Below, piece by piece: positions 646 to 25,182 of a stretch of DNA of 29,784 nt (its first letter is position 1; each line of letters starts with the position of its first letter). Source of the DNA: a virus; the IMG/VR virus record IMGVR_UViG_3300020601_001232, positions 1 to 29,784 of that record; one strand, 5' to 3'. The notes below the pieces were generated by a model. It saw nothing but the letters and a program-made list of their open reading frames with translations. It did no database searches and had not been told where the DNA came from. The translations under genes and the position numbers were made by a program.

Positions 646-2724
646 TTATGTTGTAACTGTCCAACCCTTACTAGTGGCGACCCCTAAAGTGTCTGAATGA
701 AGTTCTGCCACTCCGTAGTTGTTTCTAATATCAATTGTCTGACCAACAACACCACTAGATAGATTTCCTATGATGTGCGCAAGAGCGCCACTACCTAGAT
801 GGCAACCATAATAACTATGACTAACCTCCACATTGTATACGTCAGACCACCTAACATATTGACAGCTACTTAACCAGCTTGTTAAATTAGAAATACCAGA
901 CATATTTATTGCCGGAACGCTATTAAGTGCATAACACCTGTTAAACAGACCTATAAGATTCGTCTCTGGGCAAACCGTAAGACCTTCAAAATATTTAATA
1001 TTAGAACACTCATAGAATAAAGTCGTATTGTTAATAATGCCTGAGATATTTATGTGCGGCACGCTTGTCAAGCTATCGCAATTCCTAAACATGTTGGTGG
1101 CTGTCGGCGGACATGTAGAATGGTCCTCAAAAATCCCGGAGGGGAATTTTTCTAAATCATAGCACCTCCAAAAAGCGCCGTAAGAATCACCAAGTTGATC
1201 TACTCGATGCTTGTTCGTAAAACCTTTAAATTTTTTTAATCTATAACAGTTCTCAAACATCTGTTTTATTGTAGTAGCGCTAGAAATATCATAAACAGGA
1301 GCATTTTCAAGATTAGAGCTTGCACGAAACATTCCGGTAAAATTAGTAACACCAGAAGTATTTAAATAGGGAGCGTCTTTTAGTCTACCGCAGGAATAGA
1401 AAGCGTTAACCAGAGAAGTCGGACGTGTATTTTCTGGGTCTTCAAAAGAAACGGTTTTTAAGTGATCACAATCATAAGCCAAAGAACTAAAATCAATCGG
1501 GCTATTAAAAGCCCCAAACTCAAGACCCTTTAAGGAGTGGCAGGAAGAGAAAGCCGAAGCGAGCGATTGCGTATTTGGTAGATTTATCTTTGGTATATAA
1601 TTTAAATTTACACAATTAGTAAACATGCTTGAAGAAGTGGTCACGCCAGACATCTGATCAAAAAAATCTTCAGGTATATACTTTAATTTAACACAATCGT
1701 TAAAAATTGCATTAATATTTGTGGCACTAGAGAAATCTAACCCAGAAGGAATTGAACGTATACTTTGACATTTTGAAAATAAACTGCTAAGATTTTCACC
1801 ATTAGAATAATCTAGCTCTGGAATTGTTGTTAAAGATTTGCAGTAATAAAACATTGATGAAAAATTGATTACATTAGAAGTATCGTAGCTTGGAATTTCC
1901 CTTAGCTTGTAATTATTCGAAAACATTGATTGAAAAGCAGTCGCGCTAGAAGTGTCAATATATGGAGCGCTTTGTAACTCCCAACAATCAGTAAACATGT
2001 TACCAAAATTAGTATTGCCACTAAATAAGCCGCTTGAGAAAACAACCTCTCTTAGATTATTGGCATCGTGAAATAGATTATCTGCGCCAGTAATTGAGTT
2101 AGGGCTTAATATGGTACATTTATGAAGATGTTTTGGTTTACCGCTATTGTAGTAGTAAAGCATATATTCAACATTATCTAAGTTTTGAGAAGCAATTTGA
2201 ACTTCTAATATATTACCACCACCATCTAATCTATTACCATAGCTGTTTCTGCCGGTATAATCAGTACCCCTCCAGCCATTTCCCTTTAGGTTCATACTGT
2301 AAAGTCCGCTATGATGAACCATTTGCACAAGAGCCTGACGACAAACCCGACCCTGATAAATAAATTCTGTATCAGCAGAAAGATTCTCGTAGTCATAATC
2401 GTGTTTAGCCTGAGTTTGTGTAGATGTTCCACTTATTACTTCTGATGTGCCATCACCCCAGTCAATGCTAGAGTACGTTGGGAAATTATTATAGTAAACA
2501 TAATAACCCTGAACATAAAAATCAACACCTATTGATGTTCCGCTTTCAACAAAAAGAAGAATATCTGACCTGCTATCTGACTCGCTTATAGAAGGCATAT
2601 CTAGCCACTCAGAAGGACGAACCCAAGGCTCGCTGGGTAATTCGGCATCAACATACACATCCTCATACGGCTGTATAACCGAAATCTTGCCGACGTTTGT
2701 ATTTCCTACTTTTAAATTTGCCAT
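646..2724 (-). CDS. BspA-like leucine-rich-repeat surface protein, second paralogue
   Basis: The protein is 692 aa. Residues 1-60 hold the shared IKVGN/ISVI-x-PY and W-V-R-P-S-E-W-L-D-M-P blocks, and a S-I-D-W-G-D-G-T stretch near residue 85 resembles a PKD-type beta sandwich. From about residue 190 to 640 it is built of roughly 23-residue repeats of the form MF-x-x-C-x-x-L-x-x-IP-x-x-DTS-x-x-T-x-x, the BspA/DUF285 type of leucine-rich repeat (examples: DTSNVINFSSMFYYC, DISSATTIKQMFENC). The C-terminus (VVGQTIDIRNNYGVAELHSD) is nearly the same as in the next gene upstream. BspA-like repeats are known from bacterial and protist surface adhesins; a host-recognition or adhesion role on the virion is inferred from the fibre neighbourhood. 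No signal peptide is visible, as expected for a virion protein. It starts 10 bases after the upstream stop. Confidence 0.85.
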   Translation of the reverse strand: MANLKVGNTNVGKISVIQPYEDVYVDAELPSEPWVRPSEWLDMPSISESDSRSDILLFVESGTSIGVDFYVQGYYVYYNNFPTYSSIDWGDGTSEVISGTSTQTQAKHDYDYENLSADTEFIYQGRVCRQALVQMVHHSGLYSMNLKGNGWRGTDYTGRNSYGNRLDGGGNILEVQIASQNLDNVEYMLYYYNSGKPKHLHKCTILSPNSITGADNLFHDANNLREVVFSSGLFSGNTNFGNMFTDCWELQSAPYIDTSSATAFQSMFSNNYKLREIPSYDTSNVINFSSMFYYCKSLTTIPELDYSNGENLSSLFSKCQSIRSIPSGLDFSSATNINAIFNDCVKLKYIPEDFFDQMSGVTTSSSMFTNCVNLNYIPKINLPNTQSLASAFSSCHSLKGLEFGAFNSPIDFSSLAYDCDHLKTVSFEDPENTRPTSLVNAFYSCGRLKDAPYLNTSGVTNFTGMFRASSNLENAPVYDISSATTIKQMFENCYRLKKFKGFTNKHRVDQLGDSYGAFWRCYDLEKFPSGIFEDHSTCPPTATNMFRNCDSLTSVPHINISGIINNTTLFYECSNIKYFEGLTVCPETNLIGLFNRCYALNSVPAINMSGISNLTSWLSSCQYVRWSDVYNVEVSHSYYGCHLGSGALAHIIGNLSSGVVGQTIDIRNNYGVAELHSDTLGVATSKGWTVTT

Positions 2725-2733
2725 TATTTGTAC

Positions 2734-4767
2734 CTATGTAGTAACAGTCCAGCCTTTTGAAGTTGCGATAGCGATGGTGTCGGGGTGAAGCTCTGACACG
2801 CCATAATTTTGTGAAATCGTAATCGTCTGACCTGTAACGCCACTTGCAAGATTGTTAAATATATTTTCTATAGCGCCACTTCCCAGTAAGCAGTTAAAAT
2901 AAGATATGGAACATTCCGTGTTTTTTAGATCGCTCCAATTCAAAGACACGCAACCGTAAAAAGCGTTATTCAGACTTTTAACACCAGACACATCCCAGTC
3001 TGGAATCGTTGTTATATACTGGTTCGCAAAAAGCAGCCCATAAAAATACGTGCCAGAACCAAACTGAATATTTTCAAAAACTCTAAAATCGACATCGTTG
3101 TAAAACGGAGAGTAATTTGAAGTATTTGTACAGCCAGCAAGATTAATGTTCTTTGCCTCTCTTATGTTGCAATTTTGGAACATAGAGTTTGTTTTAGATG
3201 GGCATGAGTTATAGTCCTGAAACAGACCGGAAGGCATAGATGTTAAAGAATGACAGTTAGCAAATGCGTTCGCGGCATCATTTATTTTATTATTAATGTT
3301 CAAAAAGTTAACATGTTTTATTTTTTTACAATTAGTGTATATATTTAATAAATCTGAAGCACTGGACATGTCTATATCTTGAGCCTCTTCGAGAACTTGG
3401 CAATTATTGTACATGTATCTTACGTCAGTCGCATTTCCAGTGTAAAAGCTAGGAGCCTTTATTAAATTATGATTTTCAAGAAATAATGCAAAAAAGTTAG
3501 TGACACCGGTTGGTAAATTATTACCGGTAACTTCTCGAAGCTCGCTACAGTTCTGTATTGCGTAATACATATCAGTGACAGAAGAAATATCTTCCAAATG
3601 TAAAGTTTTTAAGCTTTTACAGGAAGTGAACGCATTTCTCATGCTAGTCGCATTAGGCGCATAAATAGGTGGAGCCTTTTTTAATTTTGAACAGTTAATA
3701 AAAGAGTTATATAAGGTGGTAGCCCCACTTAAATTTACATCAGTTGGCAGATATAGTAATTCTTTACAGCTATTGAACATATTAAACGCATCATATAATC
3801 CAGTGGGCCAAGAGACGCCGTGAGGAACATATTTTATATTAGTATGCATAAACGCATGTGATAAAGTGGTCGCGTTAGAATAGTCCAAGTCGGGGAATTT
3901 TTCTAAAGAATAGCACTCGTAAGCAAAAATAAGAAAATTCGTACAACTAGATGTATCTATGTCTGGTATCTCTTTTATACTGCGACAACGGCCAAAAGTC
4001 TCTTGTAATGAAGTGGCGGACGACGTGTCAAAGAAAGGAATTTGTTGTAATCTGTGGCAGTTATCAAACATTAAGCTAAGATTTGTTTTACCGGTAGTGC
4101 TGCCACTAGGAATATATGCGACCTTCATATTAGAAAGACCTCTAAAAAACCCGTTTGGAACACGAAGCTCATCGCAATCCGCAATAACCCTCTCTAAAAA
4201 CCTACTACCACCACCACCATTATCAAAAATCCCAAATGAAGGAGCTTTAATATAAATATCTACTATGTTGTTAGATTGACCGTTAATGTAAAAAGAATCT
4301 TTAGACGGATCTCTACCGCCCATTGAAGAGATGCCAAAATAATCCATACCGCTGGCATTATGAAGTTGAATAAGAGCCTGCCTAGCAATTCCGCCATTGA
4401 ATTCTATTTCACTGTATTGCGGCAGATTAGAGTAACTTATATCATGAGAATAGTGATCGGCTAACCCCGGAGAGCCGTAAGCTAGGGAAGTAGATCCATC
4501 TCCCCAGTCTATAGTAGTATGAAGTCCAGAGTCACCCCGAAGCTGTATGGCTATCTTTTTATTCTCAACCCCGCTTTCAACCATCATAAGCATCGCTATC
4601 TTATTGTCACCACTGTTGTACGTGGGCATATCTAACCAATCTTGAGGGCGAGACCAGACCGGCTCTTCGCTAGCGACAGAAAAACTTTCTCCACCTATAT
4701 CGGCGCTACTATAAGGTTCAATTATAGATATAGCATTTACTTCGGCATTACCTAATTTTATACTCAT
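2734..4767 (-). CDS. BspA-like leucine-rich-repeat surface protein, first paralogue
   Basis: I take the ATG at 4767 (MSIKLGNAEVNAISIIEPY) as the start because it matches the N-termini of both paralogues; an in-frame TTG at 4782 only adds five residues. The result is 677 aa. The ATG overlaps the stop of the 1044-aa fibre gene by one base (TAATG) with no clear ribosome site, so translation is probably coupled. Domains: N-terminal attachment-like segment, a T-I-D-W-G-D-G-S PKD-like stretch, then about 18-20 BspA/DUF285 repeats (for example DTSSATSLQETFGRC, DTSSCTNFLIFAYEC) and a conserved C-terminal cap (GQTITISQNYGVSELHPD). It differs from its paralogue mostly inside the repeats while both ends are conserved, which fits a variable binding surface on a common frame. 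Virion location is inferred. Confidence 0.85.
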   Translation of the reverse strand: MSIKLGNAEVNAISIIEPYSSADIGGESFSVASEEPVWSRPQDWLDMPTYNSGDNKIAMLMMVESGVENKKIAIQLRGDSGLHTTIDWGDGSTSLAYGSPGLADHYSHDISYSNLPQYSEIEFNGGIARQALIQLHNASGMDYFGISSMGGRDPSKDSFYINGQSNNIVDIYIKAPSFGIFDNGGGGSRFLERVIADCDELRVPNGFFRGLSNMKVAYIPSGSTTGKTNLSLMFDNCHRLQQIPFFDTSSATSLQETFGRCRSIKEIPDIDTSSCTNFLIFAYECYSLEKFPDLDYSNATTLSHAFMHTNIKYVPHGVSWPTGLYDAFNMFNSCKELLYLPTDVNLSGATTLYNSFINCSKLKKAPPIYAPNATSMRNAFTSCKSLKTLHLEDISSVTDMYYAIQNCSELREVTGNNLPTGVTNFFALFLENHNLIKAPSFYTGNATDVRYMYNNCQVLEEAQDIDMSSASDLLNIYTNCKKIKHVNFLNINNKINDAANAFANCHSLTSMPSGLFQDYNSCPSKTNSMFQNCNIREAKNINLAGCTNTSNYSPFYNDVDFRVFENIQFGSGTYFYGLLFANQYITTIPDWDVSGVKSLNNAFYGCVSLNWSDLKNTECSISYFNCLLGSGAIENIFNNLASGVTGQTITISQNYGVSELHPDTIAIATSKGWTVTT

Positions 4768-7700
4768 TATAAGATAATCCAATTAGAGTTAGTTGACTGT
4801 AGTGTTATAGATTGGTATTGCGTACTCAATGAGAATGAGGTTTGACCGTCTATAGTTTGCCCACCAACACCACTAACCGTTACGGCGCCAGCACTAATAT
4901 TCTTTATATTATACACGATTCCGCCGTTGCCAACCGCAGAGGGAAGTGTCAAATTTAAACCAGCTGTAGCATGTATTGTATAGTCTGTAGTTAATATTGT
5001 TGTGTCTACATTTACAGTCCTAATTGGCTGGACGACTGGCCCTTCGATATCTGGATCAGTAATAATATAAAACGTGGCGGCGTCTGGTGTTATAGCGTCA
5101 TATTCTGCTTGTGTAAGTTGTTTAATGTGATATATTTCATCACTAGTAATTACGCGCTTTCCACTGGCAATAATATTACCACCAAGAGTTACATCTACAC
5201 CGTCGTAGGTAAATGTATTGTTACCACTTAAACTTCCAGAGTCATCGAAAAAAGATACGCCGCTTGGAGTTCCAGTTGGGTTTACACTAGCAAGTAATCC
5301 AGAAACCGTAGCAATATCAGAATCTGCTTGGTCAACCCTAGCTTCAAAATACCCCGATATGGCAGCGTCTTCGGATGCGTCTGTGATAATGTAGAACGTA
5401 GCAGAATCAGGTGTGATAGCGTCATACTCAGCTTGCGTCAACTGCTTGATATGGAATATCTCATCGCTGGTTATTATTCTTTCACCGCTAGAAAAAATAG
5501 TACCGTCTAGAGATATGTTTTCGCCATCGTAAATTAATGTGCTATTCCCGGTTAAGCTTGCGTCGTTAGCGAAAAATGTCATTCCACTTGGAGTTCCAGT
5601 TGGCGTTAAGCCAGAAACAGTGATGATGTCTAGATTTAGCTGATCTGTTACGGACTCAAAATAACCGGATATTGCCGTATCTTGACCCTCTAAATAGCCA
5701 GAGACAGAGGGCGCATCTGTAATTATATAAAAAGTTGCTGAATCTGGAGTTATTGCATCGTACTCAGCTTGTGTTATTTGTTCTATATGATAGATGTCAT
5801 CACTGGTGATTACGCGCTTCCCACTTGCGGTTATGTTGCCAGTAACAGAGACATTAGACCCGTCATAAACAAGAGTGTCATTGCCTGTTAAAATACCATC
5901 GTCGCCAAAGAAAGATATACCACTGACAACGCCAGTTGGGTCTGATGCACCACTAATAGAAACAATATTTGTAGCACTGTCATAAGAAACAAAAGTTCCG
6001 CCTACGCCACTAAATGAAACTGTCTCGCCAGCATATATATTCTCTGAATTATTACCATCGCTAACCGTCCAGTGATCGTATAGTAATCCAGAAACAGTAT
6101 CAAGATTTATATCTGTAGAATTTGCGCGAGACTCGAAATACCCAGAGTTAGCTGTAATATTTGAAGTATTGTCATTTATATTAGACTGGAGATTGCCACT
6201 AGAGGTAGTTATTAAATTAGTTAGGGTGTTTGCTATATTTTCATCGTCATTAAGGGCGGCAGCAATCTCATTGAGAGTATCGAGTGTTTCTGGTGCGCCA
6301 CTTACAATTAGGGCATAAACATCTCCACTAATAGATGAAATATCTACACCAAAACTTCCGCCAGCATTATTTGTATATGTAAGAATACCATTGCTGTATC
6401 CTAAACTAACACCGCTAGTGTCAAACGTTGACAAGCTAGAAAGATCGGCAGTAAAACTTCCTCCATAGCTATTATTATATGTTAGTATATTACTTGTGAA
6501 ATCAAAACTTTCACCGCTAGGGGTTAACAATCCAGATACGGTATTTAGATTGTTGTCAGTGTTGTTCGCTCTAGACTCAAAGTAGCCTGAGTTTGCTAGT
6601 ATCTCAGAATCCGCAAAGTCAACTCTAGACTCAAAGTAACCAGAAGTGGTGGTTAGAGACGAATTTGAATCACTGATTTTAGACTCAAAGTAACCTGAGT
6701 TTGCTAGTATCTCAGAATCCGCAGAATCAACTCTAGACTCAAAGTAACCTGAGTTTGCTAGTATCTCAGAATCCGCAGAATCAACTCTAGACTCAAAGTA
6801 CCCAGAAGTTGAAGATAAATCAGAGGAAACTTGAGATATTTCAAACTGTAGATTACCACTCGTTTGATCTATATAACCTCTCGCCCAGCCACTAACAGCC
6901 GTCGCGCTATGATCTAAGCTATCTATATATGTTTGAAAATAACCACTATTAGTGATAATGTTTTGGGTGTTTTGGTCTATTAGAGCGCCACTGGCAAATG
7001 GCAGAGCGGCTGTGGTTTGAACTGTTGTATCAGCAAATCTAATAGCATGGAATCTACCGCTGGGTGAAATAATATTGCCAATCGTTTCAAAATCACCGTA
7101 CTGATTTATGCTAGCAAGCTCATCTGTGGAAACGCTCCAAGTTTGTAGATCAGCTGCATGACCAATACTGGCTTCCACATCTAAAACATTGCTAGATATA
7201 GTAGTGTTTTTTATTGTGGTGATTTGAGAAGTGTTGATATCTAGTGTGTCAACACGTATAGAGCCACCATCTTTTGTTAGGTCTAATATTGTTTGGTATC
7301 TATGGTCTACTTTCAATCCTTCATCTAGGCCATCACCTATACTTAGTATTGAATAGCCATTTCCTTTAAGTTCAACAAAGCCATCACAGGCGGATATATA
7401 GCCATAGAATGGCTCGATTATATCTGAGTTAGAGTTTTTGAATCCTATCTTCCAAAATGGATCAAGGCTTTCGTCTACATAAAAAGAAGCAACTCTACTA
7501 GTAATATCAGTTGAATATGCTTGCCAGTAATCACCGGTATCACTTCTTTTAAACGTAAAAGGTGTTGGGAAAACAACTGAGTCGCCTTCATCTTTGTATA
7601 CAAGTTTATCTGCTGGTACTACGGAGAATACAACGCTAGTGCCTTGTAAATTAATCAAACCGTCAGAATTAGAACTTTCAAATACAGAATCTCTACTAAG

Positions 7701-7901
7701 ACTGTTGTCGCTAGCTCTGTACGTTCCAAGGCCTATTTCAAATCTATCAAAATTTTGAATACAGTAATAGGTTAAATTTCCATCACCAATGGAGTCAGCA
7801 AAAGTTTGAAAACCACCAAAAGTAGCGCCGCTAAGAGTTAAACTCCCAGTACCGCTAGTAATAGTAGTTTCCTTTACTCTATCTGCTAGGATTAATGCCA
7901 T
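4767..7901 (-). CDS. Large tail-fibre-like protein (1044 aa)
   Basis: The N-terminus (MALILADRVKETTITSGTG, then GDGNLTYYCIQ and GLGTYRASDNSLSRDSV) is a module widespread at the start of phage fibre proteins. Residues about 340-480 hold tandem copies of SGYFESRVDSADSEILAN with Ser/Asp-rich heptad-like spacing, probably a trimeric stalk. Residues about 640-960 hold three copies of a 105-115-residue module: SG-x-x-FF...SLxGN-x-T-x-x-YDG, then KRVITSDEIYHIKQLTQAEY and ITPDxATFYIITD. The last 80 residues form a beta-rich cap (TTILTTDYTIHATAGLNLTL). It is followed directly by the first BspA-like gene, so the two may work in one appendage. A GTGTATAAT element precedes the gene. The exact attachment point (tail or head) cannot be told from sequence. 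Confidence 0.82.
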   Translation of the reverse strand: MALILADRVKETTITSGTGSLTLSGATFGGFQTFADSIGDGNLTYYCIQNFDRFEIGLGTYRASDNSLSRDSVFESSNSDGLINLQGTSVVFSVVPADKLVYKDEGDSVVFPTPFTFKRSDTGDYWQAYSTDITSRVASFYVDESLDPFWKIGFKNSNSDIIEPFYGYISACDGFVELKGNGYSILSIGDGLDEGLKVDHRYQTILDLTKDGGSIRVDTLDINTSQITTIKNTTISSNVLDVEASIGHAADLQTWSVSTDELASINQYGDFETIGNIISPSGRFHAIRFADTTVQTTAALPFASGALIDQNTQNIITNSGYFQTYIDSLDHSATAVSGWARGYIDQTSGNLQFEISQVSSDLSSTSGYFESRVDSADSEILANSGYFESRVDSADSEILANSGYFESKISDSNSSLTTTSGYFESRVDFADSEILANSGYFESRANNTDNNLNTVSGLLTPSGESFDFTSNILTYNNSYGGSFTADLSSLSTFDTSGVSLGYSNGILTYTNNAGGSFGVDISSISGDVYALIVSGAPETLDTLNEIAAALNDDENIANTLTNLITTSSGNLQSNINDNTSNITANSGYFESRANSTDINLDTVSGLLYDHWTVSDGNNSENIYAGETVSFSGVGGTFVSYDSATNIVSISGASDPTGVVSGISFFGDDGILTGNDTLVYDGSNVSVTGNITASGKRVITSDDIYHIEQITQAEYDAITPDSATFYIITDAPSVSGYLEGQDTAISGYFESVTDQLNLDIITVSGLTPTGTPSGMTFFANDASLTGNSTLIYDGENISLDGTIFSSGERIITSDEIFHIKQLTQAEYDAITPDSATFYIITDASEDAAISGYFEARVDQADSDIATVSGLLASVNPTGTPSGVSFFDDSGSLSGNNTFTYDGVDVTLGGNIIASGKRVITSDEIYHIKQLTQAEYDAITPDAATFYIITDPDIEGPVVQPIRTVNVDTTILTTDYTIHATAGLNLTLPSAVGNGGIVYNIKNISAGAVTVSGVGGQTIDGQTSFSLSTQYQSITLQSTNSNWIIL
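5040..5945 (-). repeat. Three tandem copies of a fibre module
   Basis: Three coding modules about 325 bases apart each contain TQAEYDAITPD and FYIITD. They are centred near 5090, 5410 and 5750. Protein identity is high, while the DNA has many synonymous changes (tcatattctgcttgtg versus tcatactcagcttgcg), so the copies are old enough to have diverged under protein-level selection. Confidence 0.85.
6560..6805 (-). repeat. Near-identical stalk repeats in the 1044-aa fibre
   Basis: Repeats with a 54-57-base period encode ESRVDSADSEILANSGYF. The blocks near 6570-6620, 6680-6735 and 6735-6790 are almost identical in DNA as well as in protein, unlike the older module repeats in the same gene. Recent duplication or ongoing expansion and contraction of the stalk is a plausible reading. 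Confidence 0.85.
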
Positions 7902-7987: not shown

Positions 7988-8911
7988 TTATGGACCGACT
8001 GGGTTAATCGGGTTCGGGTCGGGAGGCAGCGTGGTAGTTGGTTCACCTCCACCATCACAGCACGCACAAGATGCTGAACTTGCGAGTCCAGAAAAAGTCC
8101 AAGCAGGAGGAGCGCCACAGCTACCCGTTGCGTTGGGGTTGTCTGCTCCACCCGGACCGCTGAAACTACCCATACAAGTACTCGCACTTCCCGTCCATCT
8201 AGATAGCGAGTTAGCAGGCTCGTTAGAGTCGCAAGTTATGGTAGATGACCAAGAGTCGCCACATCCGAAGTTCCCATTGTCGCTATATGAATAAGTTCCA
8301 TTACACCCTCCGTCGTAAGGGCTAATAGTATCCGAAGCCGAATCGCTAGCACTGAAATCGCAGTCATCTCCAGTGCCAAAGATCGAAACGGACCAGCTTA
8401 GAGTCTGTGGGCATGGACATTCACAAGACGGTGACGCCGTGGTGGTGGGCGATTCTGTTGTAGGAGACCCGGTTGTACTAGTCGTTGTAGGCGATTCTGT
8501 TGTAGGAGACCCGGTTGTACTAGTCGTTGTAGGGGGTTCCGTTGTAGGCGATTCTGTTGTAGGCGGTTCCGTCGTAGGCGATTCTGTTGTAGGAGACCCG
8601 GTTGTACTGGTCGTTGTGGGCGGTTCCGTTGTAGGCGATTCTGTTGTAGGCGGTTGCGTTGTAGGAATCTCGGTAGTACTGGTCGTTGTTGGAGGTTGAG
8701 TTGTGGGAATCTCGGTTGTGCTAGTCGTCGTAGGAAGCCCAGTTGTAGGAATCTCAGTGGTAGTTGTTGGAGGTTGAGTCGTTGGAGGTTGAGTCGTTGG
8801 AGGTTGAGTCGTTGGAGGTTGAGACGTAGTGGTAGTGGGTCGGCTAGTGGTACTAGTCGTTGTCGGAGGAGCAGTAGCGCATAAACAATCACACTCAGGC
8901 GGTCTTCCCAT
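7988..8911 (-). CDS. Mucin-like Thr/Pro-rich protein with Cys-rich flanks (307 aa)
   Basis: Three parts are visible. Residues 1-12 carry a C-D-C-L-C cluster (C7, C9, C11). Residues 13-161 are low-complexity Thr/Pro/Ser repeats such as PTTQPPTT, PTTTSTTEIPTT and PTTESPTTEPPTT, over half Thr and with almost no hydrophobic residues: the composition of a mucin-type O-glycosylation domain. Residues 162-307 start with C-E-C-P-C and continue as a Cys/Gly/Ser/Asp-rich domain with further cysteines (for example C-A-C-C near residue 287) and a Pro-rich tail. There is no signal peptide or membrane segment. The gene starts 1 nt after the stop of the glycosyltransferase gene, with GGGAAG as ribosome site, so the two are co-translated. 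I infer a rigid, glycosylated virion stalk displaying a disulfide-rich head. It might instead be an unglycosylated linker; no database family is recognised. Confidence 0.75.
   Translation of the reverse strand: MGRPPECDCLCATAPPTTTSTTSRPTTTTSQPPTTQPPTTQPPTTQPPTTTTEIPTTGLPTTTSTTEIPTTQPPTTTSTTEIPTTQPPTTESPTTEPPTTTSTTGSPTTESPTTEPPTTESPTTEPPTTTSTTGSPTTESPTTTSTTGSPTTESPTTTASPSCECPCPQTLSWSVSIFGTGDDCDFSASDSASDTISPYDGGCNGTYSYSDNGNFGCGDSWSSTITCDSNEPANSLSRWTGSASTCMGSFSGPGGADNPNATGSCGAPPAWTFSGLASSASCACCDGGGEPTTTLPPDPNPINPVGP
8429..8875 (-). repeat. Mucin-like PTT/STT coding repeat tract
   Basis: The tract encodes residues 13-161 of the mucin-like protein. It is built from 12-, 15- and 24-base units (PPTTQ, ESPTTEP, TTSTTGSPTT). 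Synonymous changes are present, but several units are identical in DNA, so slippage or recombination could change its length. All frames stay open through it. Confidence 0.9.
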
Positions 8912-8912
8912 T

Positions 8913-9959
8913 TTACTTCCCGTATATTTTTTCTGCCTCTTCTACGTATTCAGAAAATAAATCTTTATCAAAATTAGATTTTTGAACAAACTCCTGCTGT
9001 ATTGGAGAAAGATCTAAACCAAGTTCTGTGAATTCTAATACGTAGTTTCTAACCTTGTTTCTAATTGTCAGCTCGTACTTTACTCCATCAGGTCTTTGAA
9101 ACCTGTGTAGCCACTTTAAAAATGGTAGGCATATAGCTTTTCTTCCATTTTTCCTATACTTTTCGTGAATATAGCACTCCTCTCCACCAAAGCCTCTACA
9201 GTGATCGTTAAATCTAAGCCAATGCTCCTTGGCTGTAAAAAACAAGCCAAGCCCCTGAGAGAATATTTCAAATGATTTAACATCTTCAAACCCAAGAGGG
9301 TTCATTCCAGCTCTTTTTAAAGCTGCTTCGTGGCCGTAATACGGTATGTTCTCAGAGTAAATTGTAGAGCAGTAGTCGCACTCCTTTTTTTCTTTTTGGT
9401 CTACAAGACCTACAAACTTGCATTTGTCGTCCTTGTTTAATATTGAGAGATTGTTGTGGTCACATCTGCACGACCAAGCATTTCCCCATCGACCCCACAT
9501 TTGGCCGCCCCATTCATCGTTAAAATGAGTTGCTATATTTTCCATGTTGTCATACACTAGAGGCCCTTGATAAAGATTTTTTGGTTTTGGGAATCTCTCT
9601 GTAAATTTAATAAGTTTATCTAGCGTTTCAACAACTGGACAAAGGAATACATGGCAATCCATAACAAGTACAAATTCAGTGTTGGCCTCGTCAATTATCT
9701 TGTTTCTAGCAACGGAAGTGCCGTGAATCTCAGGTAGGTTGACAATTTTGAATTTATCACCTAAACCAGTTGAACATTTAAAGTTAGTAACAGATTTTGC
9801 GTGTTCGCTTTCGGGGTCATTTTCAACAACTAAGAATTCTATTCTATCTAATAAATCTTTCCTGTTATTAAATGTCAACTCTTTTATTATATCCTGAATA
9901 CTGAAGTATACACCATTGAAATCATTGTGATGGGCCATACCTATAGTTATCTTGCTCAT
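8913..9959 (-). CDS. GT-A fold glycosyltransferase, polypeptide GalNAc-transferase-like motifs (348 aa)
   Basis: The N-terminal half has the order of a GT2/GT27 nucleotide-sugar domain: ITIGMAHHND at residues 4-13, FLVVENDPESEH at 42-53, HGTSVARNKIIDEA at 79-92, then FVLVMDCHVFL at 96-106, where D101-x-H103 is a metal site of the type found in polypeptide GalNAc-transferases (D-S-H) rather than the common D-x-D. GFGGEECYIHEKYRKNG (256-272) resembles the acceptor/catalytic GGE block, and W283-x-H285 could give the third metal ligand. Residues 163-197 form an unusual Cys-rich insertion (C164, C166, C180, C194, C197), possibly a zinc site. The start is set by AAGGAAAAAAATG. It is coupled to the mucin-like gene, its most likely substrate. 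Fold assignment is fairly safe; donor sugar and acceptor are inferred. Confidence 0.8.
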   Translation of the reverse strand: MSKITIGMAHHNDFNGVYFSIQDIIKELTFNNRKDLLDRIEFLVVENDPESEHAKSVTNFKCSTGLGDKFKIVNLPEIHGTSVARNKIIDEANTEFVLVMDCHVFLCPVVETLDKLIKFTERFPKPKNLYQGPLVYDNMENIATHFNDEWGGQMWGRWGNAWSCRCDHNNLSILNKDDKCKFVGLVDQKEKKECDYCSTIYSENIPYYGHEAALKRAGMNPLGFEDVKSFEIFSQGLGLFFTAKEHWLRFNDHCRGFGGEECYIHEKYRKNGRKAICLPFLKWLHRFQRPDGVKYELTIRNKVRNYVLEFTELGLDLSPIQQEFVQKSNFDKDLFSEYVEEAEKIYGK

Positions 9960-9995: not shown

Positions 9996-12900
9996 TTAAC
10001 ATCTCCTAGTTATTGTTTTGCTTATCACATCTCCGGGTTCGCCGGGAATACAGCCACAACAACTTTGAACCGTAAATATTGTGTCTCCTTCATCTGGTGT
10101 CGCTCCAACTTCTTCTTTGTAAATGCTATCTAGGTCGTCTTGTCCTAATACCGTAGTACATTCACAGTTCGCGCTAGTTGTTTCCGAGCGAGGGTTAGAA
10201 TAGAAATATGAAGCTGTTCCAGCAATCCAAACGGAATTATCGTATGTAAACGTTTGTTCTTTTACAACATCTAGTCCAGAGCATAGAGGTTCGGTTAGCT
10301 CAATTGGACAGCTAGTTGAAGTTAGTCCAAGTTGAATACCACTTATAATTCCAGCCTCGTGAACCATTGTAAACACTGTATCACTATAGTTCTGGCCGAT
10401 TAATCTTGGTCCTCCGGGATAAGACTCGCCACTAGCAAATAATATTGGATTTACAAAGTTTCCGCGTGTGTTTACGTCGTCGTAAGTTACAAGATAATCA
10501 ATGCTATCACCTTTGCTTGTAGCCAAACCGCCATCATGTGTGCCGTAAAATTTATAAGATTCTGGAACACATATTTTATTTGACCCACCCTCGTTGTATT
10601 TTTGTATTCTATTACCGAAATAATCATCTGGGTGTTGACTGCTCGACTCTTGCGTTATCTTGATTCCAGATTGAGTTCCAAATCTAGACTGAACATTCAA
10701 TATTTCTAATATTTGATTTAGATTTGTGGTGTCAGAGCAGTATCCATTTTGATAAGGCTCCATGTGATTACCCCTAATCCAAACAACACCATTTCTCTCT
10801 TGGAAGTCCATAACAGCCTGTAGAAATCTAGTATTGTTAAACATGTTGCGAAGCTCGGTCATTGACCCACAACTGTTATGATAACCAAGTACTAAAACTC
10901 CAGAAGCAAAATCTAGTTCTCCGTTTTCAGCATTTTCGGGCCAAGTTGGAACTAGACACTCTTCAACAAAGCAAACGAAATCGCCAGAAGTAATTGATCC
11001 AAAGTTAGAGTTACCGACTATAGTTTGATCGTCCGTTTCTATACCCATGAAGCTATTACCCCACGCGCAAGGCATTATTTCTGGCCCTATAATACCGGGG
11101 ATACAGCCGCAGCCACCGCCCGGATTTGCCGGTTGCTCAACAAAGCAGAAATCTTCATTAATACAGTCATCGTCGCTTAGTACTTGGAATCCACAGGAAG
11201 AACCATCTTCTCGGCAGTAAAATCCAGCGTACCTAGTTCTATTTGTAGCTCTAGTTATAATATTATAAAAGTCTAGGTCTGGGGAAGAAGAGTCCCCATT
11301 AACACTAGATATCAAAACATTTTTAATACCTGAATTTAATACGTTAGTTACGACGCGATTTAAATTATCTGCGTAGCCGACATAGGGACTTAAACTACAA
11401 CTTTCTATTATTGGATCTACGGTGTTGCAGCTAATCCAAATTGGCCTATATTCATTTTCGTATTGCAAGACCTGACCGTAAGAGCCAGCGTTGATTGTCA
11501 GATCTCTATCTCTATTGACGACGTAATAAAATTCACCATCGTCACATGCGCTTCCATTAAATATTTTTTGTAAAAATAACCCCGACGTAGGTGCGCAAAA
11601 ATCATCTGGAGGAGATATGGTCTCTCTGAAAAAGCCCTCTACATATATTGGTTTATCTCTAAGTTTTATAGAACGACCTATGCTTACGTCTCTACCAAAA
11701 GTCGCATCACCCGTCACGGTAAGTGTTTCGTCAATTTCCACGCTTTCTTTTAGAAACGCTCTACCTGAAACCTCGATGGTTTTGGCGGCAGTAACATCGC
11801 AGTGGAAGAACGATTGACCAGAAACAGCCAGTGTACCACTTATATCTACATCGCTATGGAAAGCAGCGTCCCCAGAAGCCTCTAGCGCTCCGCTAATCTG
11901 TACATCGCTATGGAAAGCGGCGTTCCCAGAAGCCTCTAGTGTGCCACTAACAGCTACGTTTCTGTGGAAAGACGCATCGCCCGAAACTTCTAGTGTACCA
12001 CTAACGTCTACATCGCTATGGAATGTAGCGTCACCAGAAACCTCTAAGGTTCCACTGACATCCATGTTTTTATGGAAAGTTGCGTCACCAGAAACTTCTA
12101 AAGTACCACTGATATATACATCCTTATAAAAGAATGAATCGCCAGATACTTCTAGGGTGTTCTTGATATCTACATTATCATGGAAAAATGCGTCACCAGA
12201 AACTTCTAGCGTGTCTTTTATATCAACATTACTATGAAAAGCTGCATCGCCAGTGACTTCTAGGAAATCATCAACTAACGCTCTGCCGTGGAAAAACGCA
12301 TCCCCTGTAACTTCAACATCTCTATTTACGTATAAATTGTTATGTAAGTATGTATTTCCAGTAACAGCTAGCTCATCGTCAATATCTACGCCGCTATGGA
12401 AATAAGCATCGCCTGTAACGGCTAGTTCATCATCAATAAATACGTTTGAGCGGAAGAACGCCTCTCCCGTAACTTCTAATGTCTGGTTAATATCAACGTT
12501 TGAATGGAAAAAAGCATCGCCCGTGACTTCTAGAACCTGTTCGACATAAGCATTTGCGTGAAAATATGCATTACCAGTAGAGTGTAGCGTTTGACCAACA
12601 TGTAGATTTCCTGTAACAAATGCATCGTCAGCAACAAATAAGTTATCTCGTATATAAGCATTGTTTTCGACCGTTAAATGTCTACCAACGTAAGCATGAC
12701 TATACAAAAATGACTGGTCGTAAACCTTTAATTGATACTCAACATCAACACCGCTATGGAAAAGTCCTACACCGGTGACTTCCAGAGTTTCATCTATGTC
12801 AACATTTGAGCGGAAGAACGCATCGCCAGTAACCTCTAGAGTCTGCTCTATATCGACGTTGCTATAAAAGAACGCATCACCAGTAACCTCTAGAGTCTGC

Positions 12901-14345
12901 TCTATATCGACGTTACTATAAAAGAACGCATCTCCAGACACTTCTAGCGTTTCGCCAACATCAAGGTTGCTATGTAAAACTGCGTCACCAGAAACTTCTA
13001 GCGTTTCGCCAACATCAAGGTTGCTATGTAAAACGGCATCGCCAGAAACTTCCAGTGTTTCCCCAATATCTACGCTACTGTGGAAGAAAGCATCGCCAGA
13101 AACCTCTAGTGTTTCTTTTATGTCAACATTATTGTGGAAAAAAGAGTCACCAGAAACCTGTAGCGTATGACCTATATCCACCCCGCTGTGAAAAACAGCA
13201 TATCCTGAAACTTCTACCGTACCACTAATGGAAACATTTTTATGGAAAGCCGCATCGCCGGAAACCTCTAAGGACTCTCCAATATCTAAATTAGAGTGAA
13301 GAATAGAATCTCCAGAAACCTCTAATTTTTGACCTACAGAAAGATTGCTATAAACAACCGTATCGCCAGAAACCTCTAGGGTTTCATCAATATCCACGCC
13401 GCTATGAAAGAAAGCGTTGTCAAAAACTTCAAGAACGTGATCTATATCTACATTGCTGTGAAAAACGGAATCGCCAGATACGGCTAGTGTTTCACCAACT
13501 TGTATTGATTTAAAAAAACCGTCCCATCTTAAATCGTAACTTCCAAAATCTAGACCATGTACATGTGGAAATATATTGACTGTGGATTGTATTTTTGCTG
13601 AGTCTGGGAATAATAGCACATCGTTTACAGAACTCCAAGCTCTGTTTGTATTGCCTAAGCTACTACCCCTGTGTTCTGTTGGAGAAACGTCCCCGGAAAC
13701 CTGAAGGGTTCCATAGTTATGTATTTCATTTGTTCCTACGGCAAGTTTTAGCTCTTCTAAGTCTCCACGTAAAAGAGGTGATCCAGACCCTTCTAAACAT
13801 TCGCTATCACATGCGTCAGGGTGCGCACCTAGAAAAAACTGATAACTATCGTTTTCACCTATATAGTAACCAGCACCAAGCCCGATACCAATATTGTAGC
13901 TTCCACGTCTGTTATGGTAAAGAGAATTAACGCCAATGGCAACATTTCCGTCACCTTCAACGCCGCCCATCAAAGACCCAAAGCCAACACCAACGTTACA
14001 GTCGCCGTCTAAGTTACAAGATATAGAGTACGAACCTACAGCTGTATTCTTCTGTCCATAAATATTTCCGTTTAAAGCAGAATACCCAAAGGCGCTATTA
14101 TCTGCGCCACTTTCATAGACAAGATATGTTTTATCTAAAGCTAATTCGCCAGCGCTTGTTTGTCTAAGGTCTACACTTTTTAAGTTCCTAGTTACAATTA
14201 TACTGCTTTCTAGGAATTTATAGTGAGAGTCAACAAGGTCTGTGAAAGCATCCCTTATGTCTTTTGGCGATATTTGTTGCGAAGAGTTGTCTGGAAAGTA
14301 ATAGTTTATACGTTGTAGAAATTCGTTCTGTGAATACTCAGCCAT
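9996..14345 (-). CDS. Giant repeat fibre (1449 aa) with YadA-like N-terminal region
   Basis: Residues 1-60 (MAEYSQNEFLQRINYYFPDN) look like a virion attachment domain. Residues about 85-175 have NSAFGYSALNG, NTAVGSYSIS, NVGVGFGSLMGG, NVAIGVNSLYHN and NIGIGLGAGYYI, the spacing of the head repeats of YadA-type trimeric adhesins. Residues about 280-895 are some 34 copies of an 18-residue unit (consensus T-L-E-V-S-G-D-A-F-F-H-S-N-V-D-I-x-E), one beta-helix-like turn each. The remaining 550 residues are non-repetitive, Cys-containing and include two CGCIPG motifs (near residue 1105 and at the C-terminus); I do not recognise this domain. A GNH motif near residue 1210 is not enough to call an enzyme. 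It starts just after the preceding small structural gene. Probable role: long side or tail fibre; inferred. Confidence 0.82.
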   Translation of the reverse strand: MAEYSQNEFLQRINYYFPDNSSQQISPKDIRDAFTDLVDSHYKFLESSIIVTRNLKSVDLRQTSAGELALDKTYLVYESGADNSAFGYSALNGNIYGQKNTAVGSYSISCNLDGDCNVGVGFGSLMGGVEGDGNVAIGVNSLYHNRRGSYNIGIGLGAGYYIGENDSYQFFLGAHPDACDSECLEGSGSPLLRGDLEELKLAVGTNEIHNYGTLQVSGDVSPTEHRGSSLGNTNRAWSSVNDVLLFPDSAKIQSTVNIFPHVHGLDFGSYDLRWDGFFKSIQVGETLAVSGDSVFHSNVDIDHVLEVFDNAFFHSGVDIDETLEVSGDTVVYSNLSVGQKLEVSGDSILHSNLDIGESLEVSGDAAFHKNVSISGTVEVSGYAVFHSGVDIGHTLQVSGDSFFHNNVDIKETLEVSGDAFFHSSVDIGETLEVSGDAVLHSNLDVGETLEVSGDAVLHSNLDVGETLEVSGDAFFYSNVDIEQTLEVTGDAFFYSNVDIEQTLEVTGDAFFRSNVDIDETLEVTGVGLFHSGVDVEYQLKVYDQSFLYSHAYVGRHLTVENNAYIRDNLFVADDAFVTGNLHVGQTLHSTGNAYFHANAYVEQVLEVTGDAFFHSNVDINQTLEVTGEAFFRSNVFIDDELAVTGDAYFHSGVDIDDELAVTGNTYLHNNLYVNRDVEVTGDAFFHGRALVDDFLEVTGDAAFHSNVDIKDTLEVSGDAFFHDNVDIKNTLEVSGDSFFYKDVYISGTLEVSGDATFHKNMDVSGTLEVSGDATFHSDVDVSGTLEVSGDASFHRNVAVSGTLEASGNAAFHSDVQISGALEASGDAAFHSDVDISGTLAVSGQSFFHCDVTAAKTIEVSGRAFLKESVEIDETLTVTGDATFGRDVSIGRSIKLRDKPIYVEGFFRETISPPDDFCAPTSGLFLQKIFNGSACDDGEFYYVVNRDRDLTINAGSYGQVLQYENEYRPIWISCNTVDPIIESCSLSPYVGYADNLNRVVTNVLNSGIKNVLISSVNGDSSSPDLDFYNIITRATNRTRYAGFYCREDGSSCGFQVLSDDDCINEDFCFVEQPANPGGGCGCIPGIIGPEIMPCAWGNSFMGIETDDQTIVGNSNFGSITSGDFVCFVEECLVPTWPENAENGELDFASGVLVLGYHNSCGSMTELRNMFNNTRFLQAVMDFQERNGVVWIRGNHMEPYQNGYCSDTTNLNQILEILNVQSRFGTQSGIKITQESSSQHPDDYFGNRIQKYNEGGSNKICVPESYKFYGTHDGGLATSKGDSIDYLVTYDDVNTRGNFVNPILFASGESYPGGPRLIGQNYSDTVFTMVHEAGIISGIQLGLTSTSCPIELTEPLCSGLDVVKEQTFTYDNSVWIAGTASYFYSNPRSETTSANCECTTVLGQDDLDSIYKEEVGATPDEGDTIFTVQSCCGCIPGEPGDVISKTITRRC
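11665..13500 (-). repeat. About 34 tandem 54-bp coding repeats in the giant fibre
   Basis: The period is 54 bases (18 codons). Most copies read roughly 'LEVSGDAFFHSNVDI', with variants VTGDA, HSGVDI and YSNVDI. Adjacent copies near 12830-12930 and 12960-13040 are almost identical in DNA, pointing to local recent duplication. Copies at the edges are more diverged. It is coding throughout and is not a CRISPR array. Confidence 0.9.
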
Positions 14346-14934: not shown

Positions 14935-15942
14935 CTAGAATGAACCCAAAAGGATTCTTCTGTTGTCTAGAACGCCAAAACCAAGTTCAGCAAATCCATA
15001 GTAGCCAGCGCGCTGTTGTCTGTGAAGAGTTGGATCTTCAAAGACTTGAACAGCTTGCTTCATTGGCATAACAAAGCTGTCGTTAGCACCTTGGTCAAGA
15101 CCAACTACCAACTCAGCATCGCCACTAGCCAATCCGCCACTAAGTGAACTTGTGAAGAAGTCTTGGTATTCTTGACCTTCTCCGAGTTCATCTAGATCGT
15201 GAAGAGCTACACCAAAGATATTGGTGATTGGAGCGCCACCTTCACCTGCGTTGTAGATCTGAGTTCTAACAACGTCAGAAACTTGATCGAATCCCCAGTT
15301 ACGCACGTCTTCGAGTGCCTCTGGAGAAACGTAAATATCAGTCAAGCGACCGCGATTAGCGGAACCTGTGTTACCGCCAGCGTTACGACGCATAACAGTT
15401 TGCATCAAGCTAACAAGTCTCTTGGAGAACATGCCAGCAGTTGCATCGCCGTCGTAAACCAAAATGTTGCGATCAACACCGGCAGCAAGAAGGGTGTGCC
15501 ATCCGTCGTCATTCATTTTCTTGACGAAGCCAGCTTCCAAAACTTGCATAGCGCGACCGACGATATCCCAGCGAGCCTCACGAGCAAAACGAAGCAAGTA
15601 ATCAATGCTGCTTGTGATGCTGTAGGTTGGAATCATAACGTAATCACCTTCGACTGATCTCTCAGGCACGCGACCGTGACCGGGATTAGTGAAAGCAACA
15701 TGCTCACCTTCAAGTCCGGGACTAATAAGGTCCAACGGATATTCGGTGCTTCCGCCCGGCTCTACTTGAATCGTTTCAAAGATATTGCCGAGAATATTAC
15801 CAACCAAAACGCCTTTGCGAAGTGGAAGTTCTAGAGCCTTTGCGAACTCTCTTTGAGCAGCAAACGCTACATTTTGGTCATTGTCACCTGAACGGCGAAG
15901 CAATGTGATAAACTCTTCACTTGGTCTTTCTTTATATGACAT
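14935..15942 (-). CDS. Major capsid protein, HK97-fold type (335 aa)
   Basis: This is called from position (after portal, protease-scaffold and decoration-like gene), length, the strongest ribosome site in the window (AAGGAGAT, 8 nt before ATG) and sequence features. These are a long N-terminal arm, a region with SITSSIDYLLRFAREARWDIV (residues about 103-123, the type of spine helix seen in HK97-fold capsids), and a C-terminal region F-V-M-P-M-K-Q-A-V-Q-V-F-E-D-P with a closing domain G-Y-Y-G-F-A-E-L-G-F-G-V. No separate delta domain is evident, consistent with a scaffold supplied by the upstream gene. The gene is followed by a strong terminator, and its codon use looks more GC-rich than that of its fibre neighbours, as expected for the most highly expressed protein. 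Confidence 0.85.
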   Translation of the reverse strand: MSYKERPSEEFITLLRRSGDNDQNVAFAAQREFAKALELPLRKGVLVGNILGNIFETIQVEPGGSTEYPLDLISPGLEGEHVAFTNPGHGRVPERSVEGDYVMIPTYSITSSIDYLLRFAREARWDIVGRAMQVLEAGFVKKMNDDGWHTLLAAGVDRNILVYDGDATAGMFSKRLVSLMQTVMRRNAGGNTGSANRGRLTDIYVSPEALEDVRNWGFDQVSDVVRTQIYNAGEGGAPITNIFGVALHDLDELGEGQEYQDFFTSSLSGGLASGDAELVVGLDQGANDSFVMPMKQAVQVFEDPTLHRQQRAGYYGFAELGFGVLDNRRILLGSF

Positions 15943-23165: not shown

Positions 23166-23427
23166 TGTTTTTTCTCACTATACTTTGAAATAGGGATTGA
23201 TAATATGTCTCGTGTCCAGTCACTTTCTTGTGGCAGAAATAACACAAAGTTATTCCGTTATCAACGTCAAATCTCAAAGTGGAAGCGCTTGCCCATTTTC
23301 TTATGTGGTGGGCATTTAAATATTTCTTTTTAGAGCAACCCGGCATTTGGCATTTTCTTTTATCTCTTGAGAATACTTTGTTTCGCCAATCTCTATAGAG
23401 GGGGTCGTCAAAATCTCTCCTGCTCAT
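23158..23427 (-). CDS. HNH endonuclease (89 aa)
   Basis: A compact HNH domain: C26-x4-C31, the A-H-H motif at residues 39-41, N57 in V-D-N-G-I-T-L-C, and C62-x2-C65 for the structural zinc, followed by a His-rich end. The start overlaps the GDP-mannose dehydratase stop (ATGA). In HK97-like and other phages, small HNH proteins encoded next to the terminase are required for terminase cutting and head maturation; the location two genes from the terminase supports that role over a homing endonuclease. Small size and integration into the overlapping operon also argue against a selfish element. Confidence 0.88.
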   Translation of the reverse strand: MSRRDFDDPLYRDWRNKVFSRDKRKCQMPGCSKKKYLNAHHIRKWASASTLRFDVDNGITLCYFCHKKVTGHETYYQSLFQSIVRKNNG

Positions 23428-24500
23428 GAGAGATCACTCATTACCATCATTTTAACGAGGTCTTCAAATGAGTGTTTGGGGGTCCATCCAAGCTTCTCTC
23501 TTGCTTTTGTGCAATCACCTCTAAGGTAGTCAACTTCAGCTGGTCTGTAAAATTCGGGGTCTTCAACTACAAAGTCAGCCCAATTTTGTATACCGAGTGA
23601 AGAAAAGGCTATGGTTATAAAGTCTTCAACTGTATGTGTTTCTCCGGTACATATAACGTAGTCATCTGGGTTATCTTGTTGTAGCATCATCCACATACCT
23701 TCGCAGTAATCGCCAGCAAAACCCCAGTCCCTATATGTTTTAAGATTTCCAAGTCTTAGTTTTGGGAATTGTAAGCCTTGCGATCTATCTTTACGTCCTA
23801 TGATATAGATTTCATCGGTGTCATTTACTAGCTCTGCTGGTTTAACGCCATTGGTATTACACCACTTGATAAAATCACCCAACCACTTTGTTATTTTTCT
23901 GGTTACAAAATCCTCTCCCCTCCTTGGTCCTTCGTGATTAAATAGTATGCCAGCGCTAGCATGAAGCCCATAACCTTCTCTATAAAGCCTAACCATGTGA
24001 TGAGCTGCGCATTTTGAGATGGCATATGGGCTTTGTGGCATAAATTTAGTTTCTTCATTTTGGTATTTGCTTTCTGAAGTCATGCCAATTTCTATGTCGT
24101 AATTTTTCCCAAACATTTCACTTGAGCTAGCTTGATAGAATTTGGTTTTTATCATGCCAAATTCTACCATACATTGTAAGATATTAAGGCAGCCTTTGCC
24201 AGTAATATCCCAAGTCAAGGCTGGTTGTTTAAATGATACAGCGACGTGGCTTTGAGCGGCTAAATTATAAATTTCATTTACGTCCCCGTGTGCTTTAAGT
24301 ATATTAATGATTGAGTGTACATCAGTTATATCGCCCTGAAGCAAACTGAATCGTTCATGATTAAGAATATGTTTAATTCTAAGTGTGTTGTCTGTGCTGC
24401 TTCTTCTTGAAACACCTATAACATTATAACCTTTTTCTAGCAATAGGTCCGCTAGATGGCTGCCGTCTTGACCTGTTACTCCGAAAATTATAGCTTTCAT
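23424..24500 (-). CDS. gmd: GDP-mannose 4,6-dehydratase (358 aa)
   Basis: Converts GDP-D-mannose to GDP-4-dehydro-6-deoxy-D-mannose, precursor of GDP-fucose, GDP-rhamnose and perosamine. NAD(P) site G-V-T-G-Q-D-G at residues 7-13; catalytic elements A-S-S-S-E-M-F-G at 124-131 and the Y-x-x-x-K pair Y159/K163; family block FNHEGPRRGEDFVTRKI at 187-203. Length and all landmarks are those of a full, active extended short-chain dehydrogenase. AAGGAAG precedes the ATG. No reductase, epimerase or aminotransferase for the next step is in the window, so the product must be used by host enzymes or by phage genes elsewhere. It lies with the glycosyltransferase at 24538 inside the packaging operon. Confidence 0.95.
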   Translation of the reverse strand: MKAIIFGVTGQDGSHLADLLLEKGYNVIGVSRRSSTDNTLRIKHILNHERFSLLQGDITDVHSIINILKAHGDVNEIYNLAAQSHVAVSFKQPALTWDITGKGCLNILQCMVEFGMIKTKFYQASSSEMFGKNYDIEIGMTSESKYQNEETKFMPQSPYAISKCAAHHMVRLYREGYGLHASAGILFNHEGPRRGEDFVTRKITKWLGDFIKWCNTNGVKPAELVNDTDEIYIIGRKDRSQGLQFPKLRLGNLKTYRDWGFAGDYCEGMWMMLQQDNPDDYVICTGETHTVEDFITIAFSSLGIQNWADFVVEDPEFYRPAEVDYLRGDCTKAREKLGWTPKHSFEDLVKMMVMSDLS

Positions 24501-24537: not shown

Positions 24538-25182
24538 TTATCTTTGACTATTTATGATATTTTCATGTGGACATAGCTTTGATGGATACCAAGTACTATG
24601 TCTCACGTCATTTCCTGTACATATGGTAGAGTTAACTGTTTTTGAGGCACCGTACCACTCTGGCAGGAACCTGATTACATTTTTTCTCTCCATAAATATG
24701 TTGATATTTTCTGGATACTCAAAATTTTTTAAAACCCTGTCCAGCCACCAAGGTCCATATACATTCCCTTGTGAAACGCTGTGTCTTGGTATCTCGTCGT
24801 ACAACCTTTTTGATATAGGGCTATTCTTACCAGAAGCCATTAAACCATTCTGTGTTGTTCCGCAGTAATCTATCGTAAAAAAATCAATGTTTTTAAAATC
24901 ATAACCCCATGTGTCAATTGGTTTCATGCAATCAAAATCTACATCAAAATAAAATCCGCCAAATAAACTCAATAATTTATATCTAAATACATCACACAGG
25001 AAGGCAGGGTGTACATTTAGTGATAAATAATCATCTGAATCTATACGCTTTATCCTTGAGTTGTCCCATAGTATATACTGGTACTCTGGATTTTTTCTTT
25101 GCCACGATTTTGTGTGCGGCCTCCAGATCTCAGGAATTTGCGTATTGCCTATCCATATTTGGTGTATCAATTTTGGTATCAT
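24538..25182 (-). CDS. DXD-type glycosyltransferase, GT32-like (214 aa)
   Basis: The start MIPKLIHQIWIGNTQIPEIW and the segment L-L-S-L-F-G-G-F-Y-F-D-V-D-F-D-C (residues 70-85, metal-binding D80-x-D82) are the signature of sugar-transferring enzymes with a DXD motif (Gly_transf_sug / Och1-like, GT32). Such enzymes modify polysaccharides or glycoproteins using a nucleotide sugar. It is one third shorter than typical family members but keeps the core. Its ATG overlaps the stop of the upstream gene (TAATG) and the dehydratase gene follows 37 bases later, so sugar supply and transfer are co-expressed. Acceptor unknown: host surface glycan or the phage's own fibres. Confidence 0.85.
   Translation of the reverse strand: MIPKLIHQIWIGNTQIPEIWRPHTKSWQRKNPEYQYILWDNSRIKRIDSDDYLSLNVHPAFLCDVFRYKLLSLFGGFYFDVDFDCMKPIDTWGYDFKNIDFFTIDYCGTTQNGLMASGKNSPISKRLYDEIPRHSVSQGNVYGPWWLDRVLKNFEYPENINIFMERKNVIRFLPEWYGASKTVNSTICTGNDVRHSTWYPSKLCPHENIINSQR

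Follow-up and report, generated by a model that had tools for sequence, protein, structure and literature searches.

The window (i.e., the whole 29,784-nucleotide stretch of DNA analyzed, which comes from an aquatic phage that is uncultured) carries two adjacent genes on its minus strand, which encode a 348-amino-acid (aa) GT-A glycosyltransferase (positions 8913 to 9959) and a 307-aa mucin-like protein rich in Thr, Pro, and Ser (7988 to 8911). The former was assigned as GT27-like (i.e., polypeptide GalNAc-transferase-like) from its open reading frame (ORF), Pfam, an AF2 model, Foldseek and VIA comparisons, and a profile match; the latter is a candidate, and probable, acceptor on the basis of its ORF, its composition, and its membership in a family of Thr-rich proteins (A2). 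An earlier note on this DNA had placed the end of the enzyme gene 1 nucleotide before its Thr-rich neighbor, and both ORFs lie as it described. Read on the minus strand, the enzyme gene ends with GGG AAG TAA (stop codon at 8915 to 8913), followed by a single A (8912) and the ATG of the 307-aa gene (from 8911). Since a Shine-Dalgarno-like GGGAAG (8916 to 8921, minus strand) lies within the last codons of the enzyme gene, translational coupling with the downstream gene is plausible.

The Thr tract spans residues 15 to 159 of the 307-aa protein (8435 to 8869, minus strand) and contains 69 Thr, 33 Pro, and 16 Ser residues (i.e., 81% T/S/P over 145 aa), with 23 PTT and 6 STT triplets. It is preceded by a Cys cluster (C7/C9/C11) and followed by a C-terminal module with 12 Cys residues (8057 to 8425, minus strand), which sequence comparison also finds in the downstream protein of locus L011; about 150 residues of PTT/STT repeats between Cys clusters had been noticed earlier, in agreement with this layout. 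The composition is that of a mucin-like domain, and glycosylation of the tract is a prediction. A scan of the entire 29.8 kb for 15-residue windows with 8 or more Thr yields 48, every one of them inside the tract. The four Thr codons are all in use (ACA, 25; ACG, 17; ACT, 15; ACC, 12), which indicates that the amino acid is kept, rather than one DNA repeat. The tract DNA also contains tandem repeats of 15, 42, 72, and 87 nucleotides, which probably drive changes in its length. The tract is neither a product of chance nor mere DNA slippage. ORFs on the plus strand opposite the tract (8373 to 8699 and others) were rejected as shadows of the repeat. The A2 family, found in seven phages, shares an N-terminal MG(R/K)P..C motif and a Thr tract.

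The pair is flanked by genes for fiber-like proteins, all on the minus strand. Domain matches and homologues identify a 1,449-aa fiber-like protein with bactofilin-like beta-helix repeats upstream (9996 to 14345), and domain matches identify a 1,044-aa tail fiber-like protein (Phage_tail_C) downstream (4767 to 7901). Beyond the tail fiber gene lie two large proteins with DUF285 repeats (646 to 4782, minus strand), which are known from Mycoplasma. A 335-aa protein (14935 to 15942, minus strand) is 82 to 96% identical across many aquatic viral contigs and has no match in INPHARED, PHROGs, or Pfam; it probably represents a major virion protein in a group of uncultured phages. The structural cluster also includes a GDP-mannose 4,6-dehydratase gene (23424 to 24500, minus strand; PF16363, E = 3e-111), an odd case of a core sugar-nucleotide gene next to the terminase. 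It is present in 35 of the 36 related loci that extend far enough upstream, with or without the GT27-like enzyme, and we therefore rejected it as a specific donor supplier for the pair. A second transferase-like gene of the DXD type (24538 to 25182, minus strand) was recognized by a domain match to Gly_transf_sug; when this gene was taken as a control, it was otherwise found only in identical copies (L305 and L306).

Motifs and predicted fold of the enzyme

An alignment of 36 viral relatives shows that D101, H103, G258-G259-E260-E261, and H285 are invariant, and D101, H103, and H285 are also invariant in 31 viral and bacterial members. The D101-C102-H103 metal motif (9651 to 9659, minus strand), to which the earlier note had drawn attention, has the DxH form. 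G258 to E261 (9177 to 9188, minus strand) corresponds to the WGGE motif of GT27, and H285 in WLHRF (9105 to 9107, minus strand) is a putative third metal ligand by analogy with the C-terminal His of GT27. According to an eLife survey of GT-A enzymes (PMC7185993), GT27 and GT60 have DxH in place of DxD and have Ser/Thr polypeptide O-glycosylation in common, and the C-terminal His of GT27 binds metal. The alignment also reveals a Cys insert (C164-x-C166 ... C194-x-x-C197; 9369 to 9470, minus strand), which is typical of the clade of the window, is missing from distant members, and may form a zinc knuckle.

The single sequence matched PF00535 (i.e., the general GT2 family) in Pfam above the cut-off (E = 7e-6); PF00535 together with DxD would mark a GT2 enzyme, and the 348-aa enzyme has DxH at the DxD position. 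A single-sequence phmmer search found no match in the PDB, and Pfam does not call GT27. The structural comparison proposed in the earlier note was made with an AF2 model built from the 36-relative alignment (mean pLDDT, 93.6), and the predicted fold is nearest to GT27. The best 50 Foldseek matches of this model in the PDB are all GT27 polypeptide GalNAc-transferases (best E = 6.9e-13). In VIA-align, GT27 chains occupy ranks 1 to 29 (Z = 23.8 to 19.8; best match, root mean square deviation of 2.9 over 263 residues), and the next family, GlfT2, follows at 18.4; because these Z values are of the same order, they indicate nearest kinship rather than identity. The model aligns to residues 135 to 417 of GalNAc-T2, and the protein stops after the catalytic domain, so that the C-terminal ricin-type lectin domain is absent.

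A profile of a wider set including bacterial members (A3) matched human GalNAc-T10 over both catalytic halves (E = 5e-4) and other GT27 chains weakly, while its non-GT27 matches in the PDB covered mainly the N-terminal donor half. The alignment with GalNAc-T10 pairs DCH with the DSH of LDSH and GGEE with GGEQ; the His residues of WLHRF and VGHIYR are paired as well, at most one alignment column off in the printed match. Among the 36 members, PF11397 (GT60) gave no match at E values up to 1; a search of the bacterial genomes with PF11397 gave no match either, but its controls behaved likewise, so that this search is uninformative. Given kinship in predicted fold and motifs and the missing lectin domain, we label the enzyme GT27-like without assigning it to GT27 itself.

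We also considered that the enzyme alters the surface polysaccharide or lipopolysaccharide of the host, as serotype-converting phage glycosyltransferases do, with genes for receptor binding and receptor alteration traveling together. The assignment by Pfam to GT2 in general is compatible with this idea, and the dehydratase and Gly_transf_sug genes suggest that the phage group handles sugars more widely. The dehydratase, however, is there whether or not the GT27-like enzyme is, and the fold points to GT27 first, with DxH and the C-terminal His. The earlier note had held that a structural match to transferases acting only on lipids or polysaccharides would speak against a polypeptide acceptor, and the predicted structure does not point there first. 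Together with the distribution of Thr tracts described below, these features make an action on host polysaccharides unlikely.

Thr tracts beside the enzyme in viral loci

We collected 49 close and 93 wider viral loci and scored Thr tracts as 8 Thr in 15 residues. A tract is encoded by the gene directly upstream of the enzyme gene (gene -1) in 65 of 91 loci and by the gene directly downstream (gene +1) in 12 of 84. At a distance of two to three genes the rate drops to 0 to 8%, and further out it is zero; in enzyme-free control contigs, 16 of 689 ORFs contain a tract. The clade of the window has its tract gene downstream (i.e., the MG[RK]P...C family), and several upstream homologues of the 1,449-aa fiber-like protein (in L003 to L012) carry Thr tracts themselves. 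On the enzyme tree, almost every lineage has an adjacent tract, and about eight changes are seen. Of 13 large phage records, 10 contain a run of seven Thr codons, and comparison with locus ranges places it beside the enzyme gene in 8 of these 10; in a 174-kb phage record, the only such run is beside the enzyme gene. The same adjacent pair, which the earlier note had proposed to look for in other phage genomes, thus recurs with many unrelated partners, and it recurs in bacteria too.

Fiber regions are recombinogenic and the contigs are metagenomic fragments, so that the adjacency might reflect coincidental hitchhiking in variable fiber clusters rich in repeats and glycosyltransferases. After dereplication at 70% identity, a mucin-like gene adjoins the enzyme gene in 28 of 44 viral loci, while 5,000 shuffles within the same loci averaged 5.6 and did not exceed 13. 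The pattern is repeated in bacterial genomes, in which 13 of 68 loci have an adjacent tract gene (expected, 2.2; maximum, 8; this permutation undercounts because many partners are short). Coincidence is already contradicted by these counts, and we regard it as highly improbable.

When the tracts were masked, 41 viral and bacterial partners fell into 22 groups without detectable similarity; it is therefore the tract, not one conserved protein, that stays with the enzyme. This association across unrelated partners, which in bacteria extends beyond fiber clusters, also argues against the modification of host polysaccharides. A tblastn search of INPHARED with three family members found no cultured-phage relatives. 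The idea that the carriers are cyanophages was dropped, as a Photo_RC gene is absent from five large relatives.

Relatives in bacterial genomes

The same profile retrieved 97 relatives from GTDB genomes, of which 80 were kept. The carriers span Alphaproteobacteria, Desulfobulbaceae, Planctomycetes, Actinobacteria, and others. Bacterial Thr tracts peak within 1 kb upstream of the enzyme gene (1.5 and 0.95 per kb) and fall to almost none at more than 4 kb from it; in 38 loci, a tract lies within 3 kb. The partners seen in Alphaproteobacteria and Desulfobulbaceae are 60 to 140 aa long and are often arranged two to four in tandem, and in them a Thr-rich tail follows an RR...(W)TKP.V..V..PAHA leader; three of the six bacterial partners examined passed the NCBIfam cut-off for a Tat signal. 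Such tandem short Tat-signal proteins, with Thr-rich or related tails, were observed in L102, L112, L117, L159, L162, and L173, and they are apparently undescribed mini-mucins. Since these partners often contain little beyond an export signal and a Thr tail, the tract is the obvious candidate acceptor. Export by Tat takes place once a protein has folded in the cytoplasm, and glycosylation there before export would be a natural reading.

We searched nine whole bacterial genomes for runs of seven Thr codons, with contig identity deduced from coordinates. The runs that match the coordinates of the enzyme locus number 7 of 7 in L173, 16 of 17 in L159, and 19 of 22 in L150, and five of the nine genomes have no such run at the enzyme locus. 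Enzyme homologues occur in the cultured Oricola indica and Labrys, and O. indica JL-62 carries the pair (L163). In L117 (6981 to 8834), an HPr-kinase-like stretch precedes the glycosyltransferase domain (PF07475, E = 1.4e-4, below the cut-off). In L037, L045, L106, and their relatives (freshwater phages and Planctomycetes), the enzyme continues at its C terminus into a methyltransferase-like domain; the match to Methyltransf_24/RMNT_CmcI is significant in L045 and L106 and weak in L037. These fusions hint at methylated sugars.

Enzymes without tracts and tracts without enzymes

The earlier note had counted related genomes carrying the enzyme without a Thr-rich neighbor against its proposal. 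Such a situation was found for a minority only (i.e., for 19 of the 63 phage enzymes left after dereplication, no adjacent gene encodes a tract), and of these 19, five have a tract two genes away and others lie at contig ends. No Thr-rich neighbor was seen in the clade of L055 to L060 or in L029 and L068, where Cys-rich proteins adjoin the enzyme, and for L055 to L060 the absence is a true one. In L055 to L060, L068, L071, and L072, the enzyme gene lies beside genes for Cys-rich proteins (GSCCYT/GSCCF...) without Thr tracts.

Only 4 of about 44 phage loci picked by a PTTTTTT tract, some of them short, contain the enzyme, and a GT2 domain occurs in only 4 of 86 neighbors of the remaining loci; the tract alone therefore does not predict the enzyme, and tracts of this kind could also be plain linkers. 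When a small sample of contigs was chosen by the conserved 335-aa gene, 6 of 11 contigs with the enzyme contained a tract versus 1 of 10 without it, a co-occurrence that is suggestive only. The Thr/Pro tract might accordingly be a flexible or extended linker, with the enzyme directed at another site (e.g., the Cys-rich modules or another virion protein), as most phage Thr tracts have no enzyme nearby and one enzyme clade adjoins GSCCYT... proteins. The tract is nevertheless the sole feature common to the 22 partner groups, and some bacterial partners are almost nothing but a signal and a Thr tail. We thus consider a linker with a different target improbable.

Comparison with known glycosylation systems

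GT27 enzymes of animals put the first sugar on mucins. The phage enzyme has the GT-A fold, DxH, GGE, the C-terminal His, and a Thr/Pro-rich mucin-like candidate acceptor in common with them, but its sequence identity to GT27 is only about 12% and it has neither a lectin domain nor a Golgi anchor. The present family also differs in being prokaryotic and viral and in the zinc knuckle-like insert of the clade of the window. GT60 (PF11397) enzymes resemble it in DxH and in the use of Ser/Thr polypeptide acceptors (PMC7185993), while PF11397 matches are absent from the 36 members.

Glycans on virions are established in mycobacteriophages, Che8 among them, according to two papers (PMC11256854 and PMC12619734, both citing Freeman 2023), and phage-encoded glycosyltransferases are thought there to glycosylate virion proteins. 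The reported glycans are on the C termini of capsid and tail tube proteins and not on a mucin-like protein. The three Che8 glycosyltransferases (gp108, gp109, and gp110) have DDD or other motifs and no DxH, and hhalign comparisons with the present family gave short segments and no significant match (E = 0.05 to 0.51). Che8 gp108 is a glycosyltransferase-methyltransferase fusion, an architecture also seen in L045 and L106. Direct O-glycosylation in the bacterial cytoplasm (e.g., of flagellin by FlmG; PMC7591256), compared here by description, likewise involves a soluble glycosyltransferase and a cytoplasmic protein acceptor before assembly or export, but the type of acceptor is different.

The open-access literature yielded no paper joining Thr-rich proteins of phages or bacteria with GT27-like enzymes. 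Since Che8 virions already carry glycans (PMC11256854), the claim of a new kind of virion modification made in the earlier note was too strong. Its reading of an enzyme paired with a mucin-like substrate gains from the GT27-like fold, the metal triad, and the recurrent association with Thr tracts. The novelty appears to lie in the mucin-like acceptor and in the GT27-like enzyme.

Proposed function and implications

We propose, with a probability of roughly three in four, that the pair consists of a GT27-like O-glycosyltransferase and its dedicated mucin-like acceptor, and that a fiber protein is modified in the cytoplasm. The enzyme would be soluble and metal-dependent and would act as a polypeptide O-glycosyltransferase of the GT-A fold. 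In the cytoplasm of the infected cell, a nucleotide sugar would serve as the donor, and the enzyme would attach the sugar to Thr (and Ser) residues in the Pro-rich tract of its neighbor, a co-translated putative fiber or appendage protein. GalNAc is suggested as the donor sugar by analogy with GT27. The tracts carried by the upstream fiber protein of sister phages would probably be modified too. Once glycosylated, the tract of the 307-aa protein may form a stalk between Cys-rich domains that is stiff, hydrated, and resistant to proteases. We infer the transfer to the tract and the role as a stalk or shield; the position of the Thr-rich protein in the virion is suggested by its place between fiber-like genes and by the tracts in fiber homologues.

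We also lean, with less confidence, toward a wider reading, in which the family is a prokaryotic counterpart of mucin-type O-glycosylation. GT27-like enzymes would here have dedicated mucin-like acceptors (i.e., fibers in many uncultured phages and, in bacteria, mini-mucins that are glycosylated in the cytoplasm and exported by Tat), possibly with a link to the evolutionary origin of the mucin enzymes of eukaryotes. The pairs probably form a dedicated sugar-coating system for surface proteins, of a type that appears to be undescribed in prokaryotes. Because cultured strains carry homologues and O. indica JL-62 the pair itself, the idea is testable now. If it is true, the family would offer a Thr-glycosyltransferase that is soluble, lacks a lectin domain, can be expressed in bacteria, and comes with its own acceptor, as well as a route to asking about the origin of the animal mucin enzymes. 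Mucin-type O-glycosylation would then not be restricted to eukaryotes: bacteria would make cheap mucins, and phages would build sugar-coated appendages with an enzyme of their own, which would matter for how aquatic viruses adsorb, resist proteases, and are shielded.
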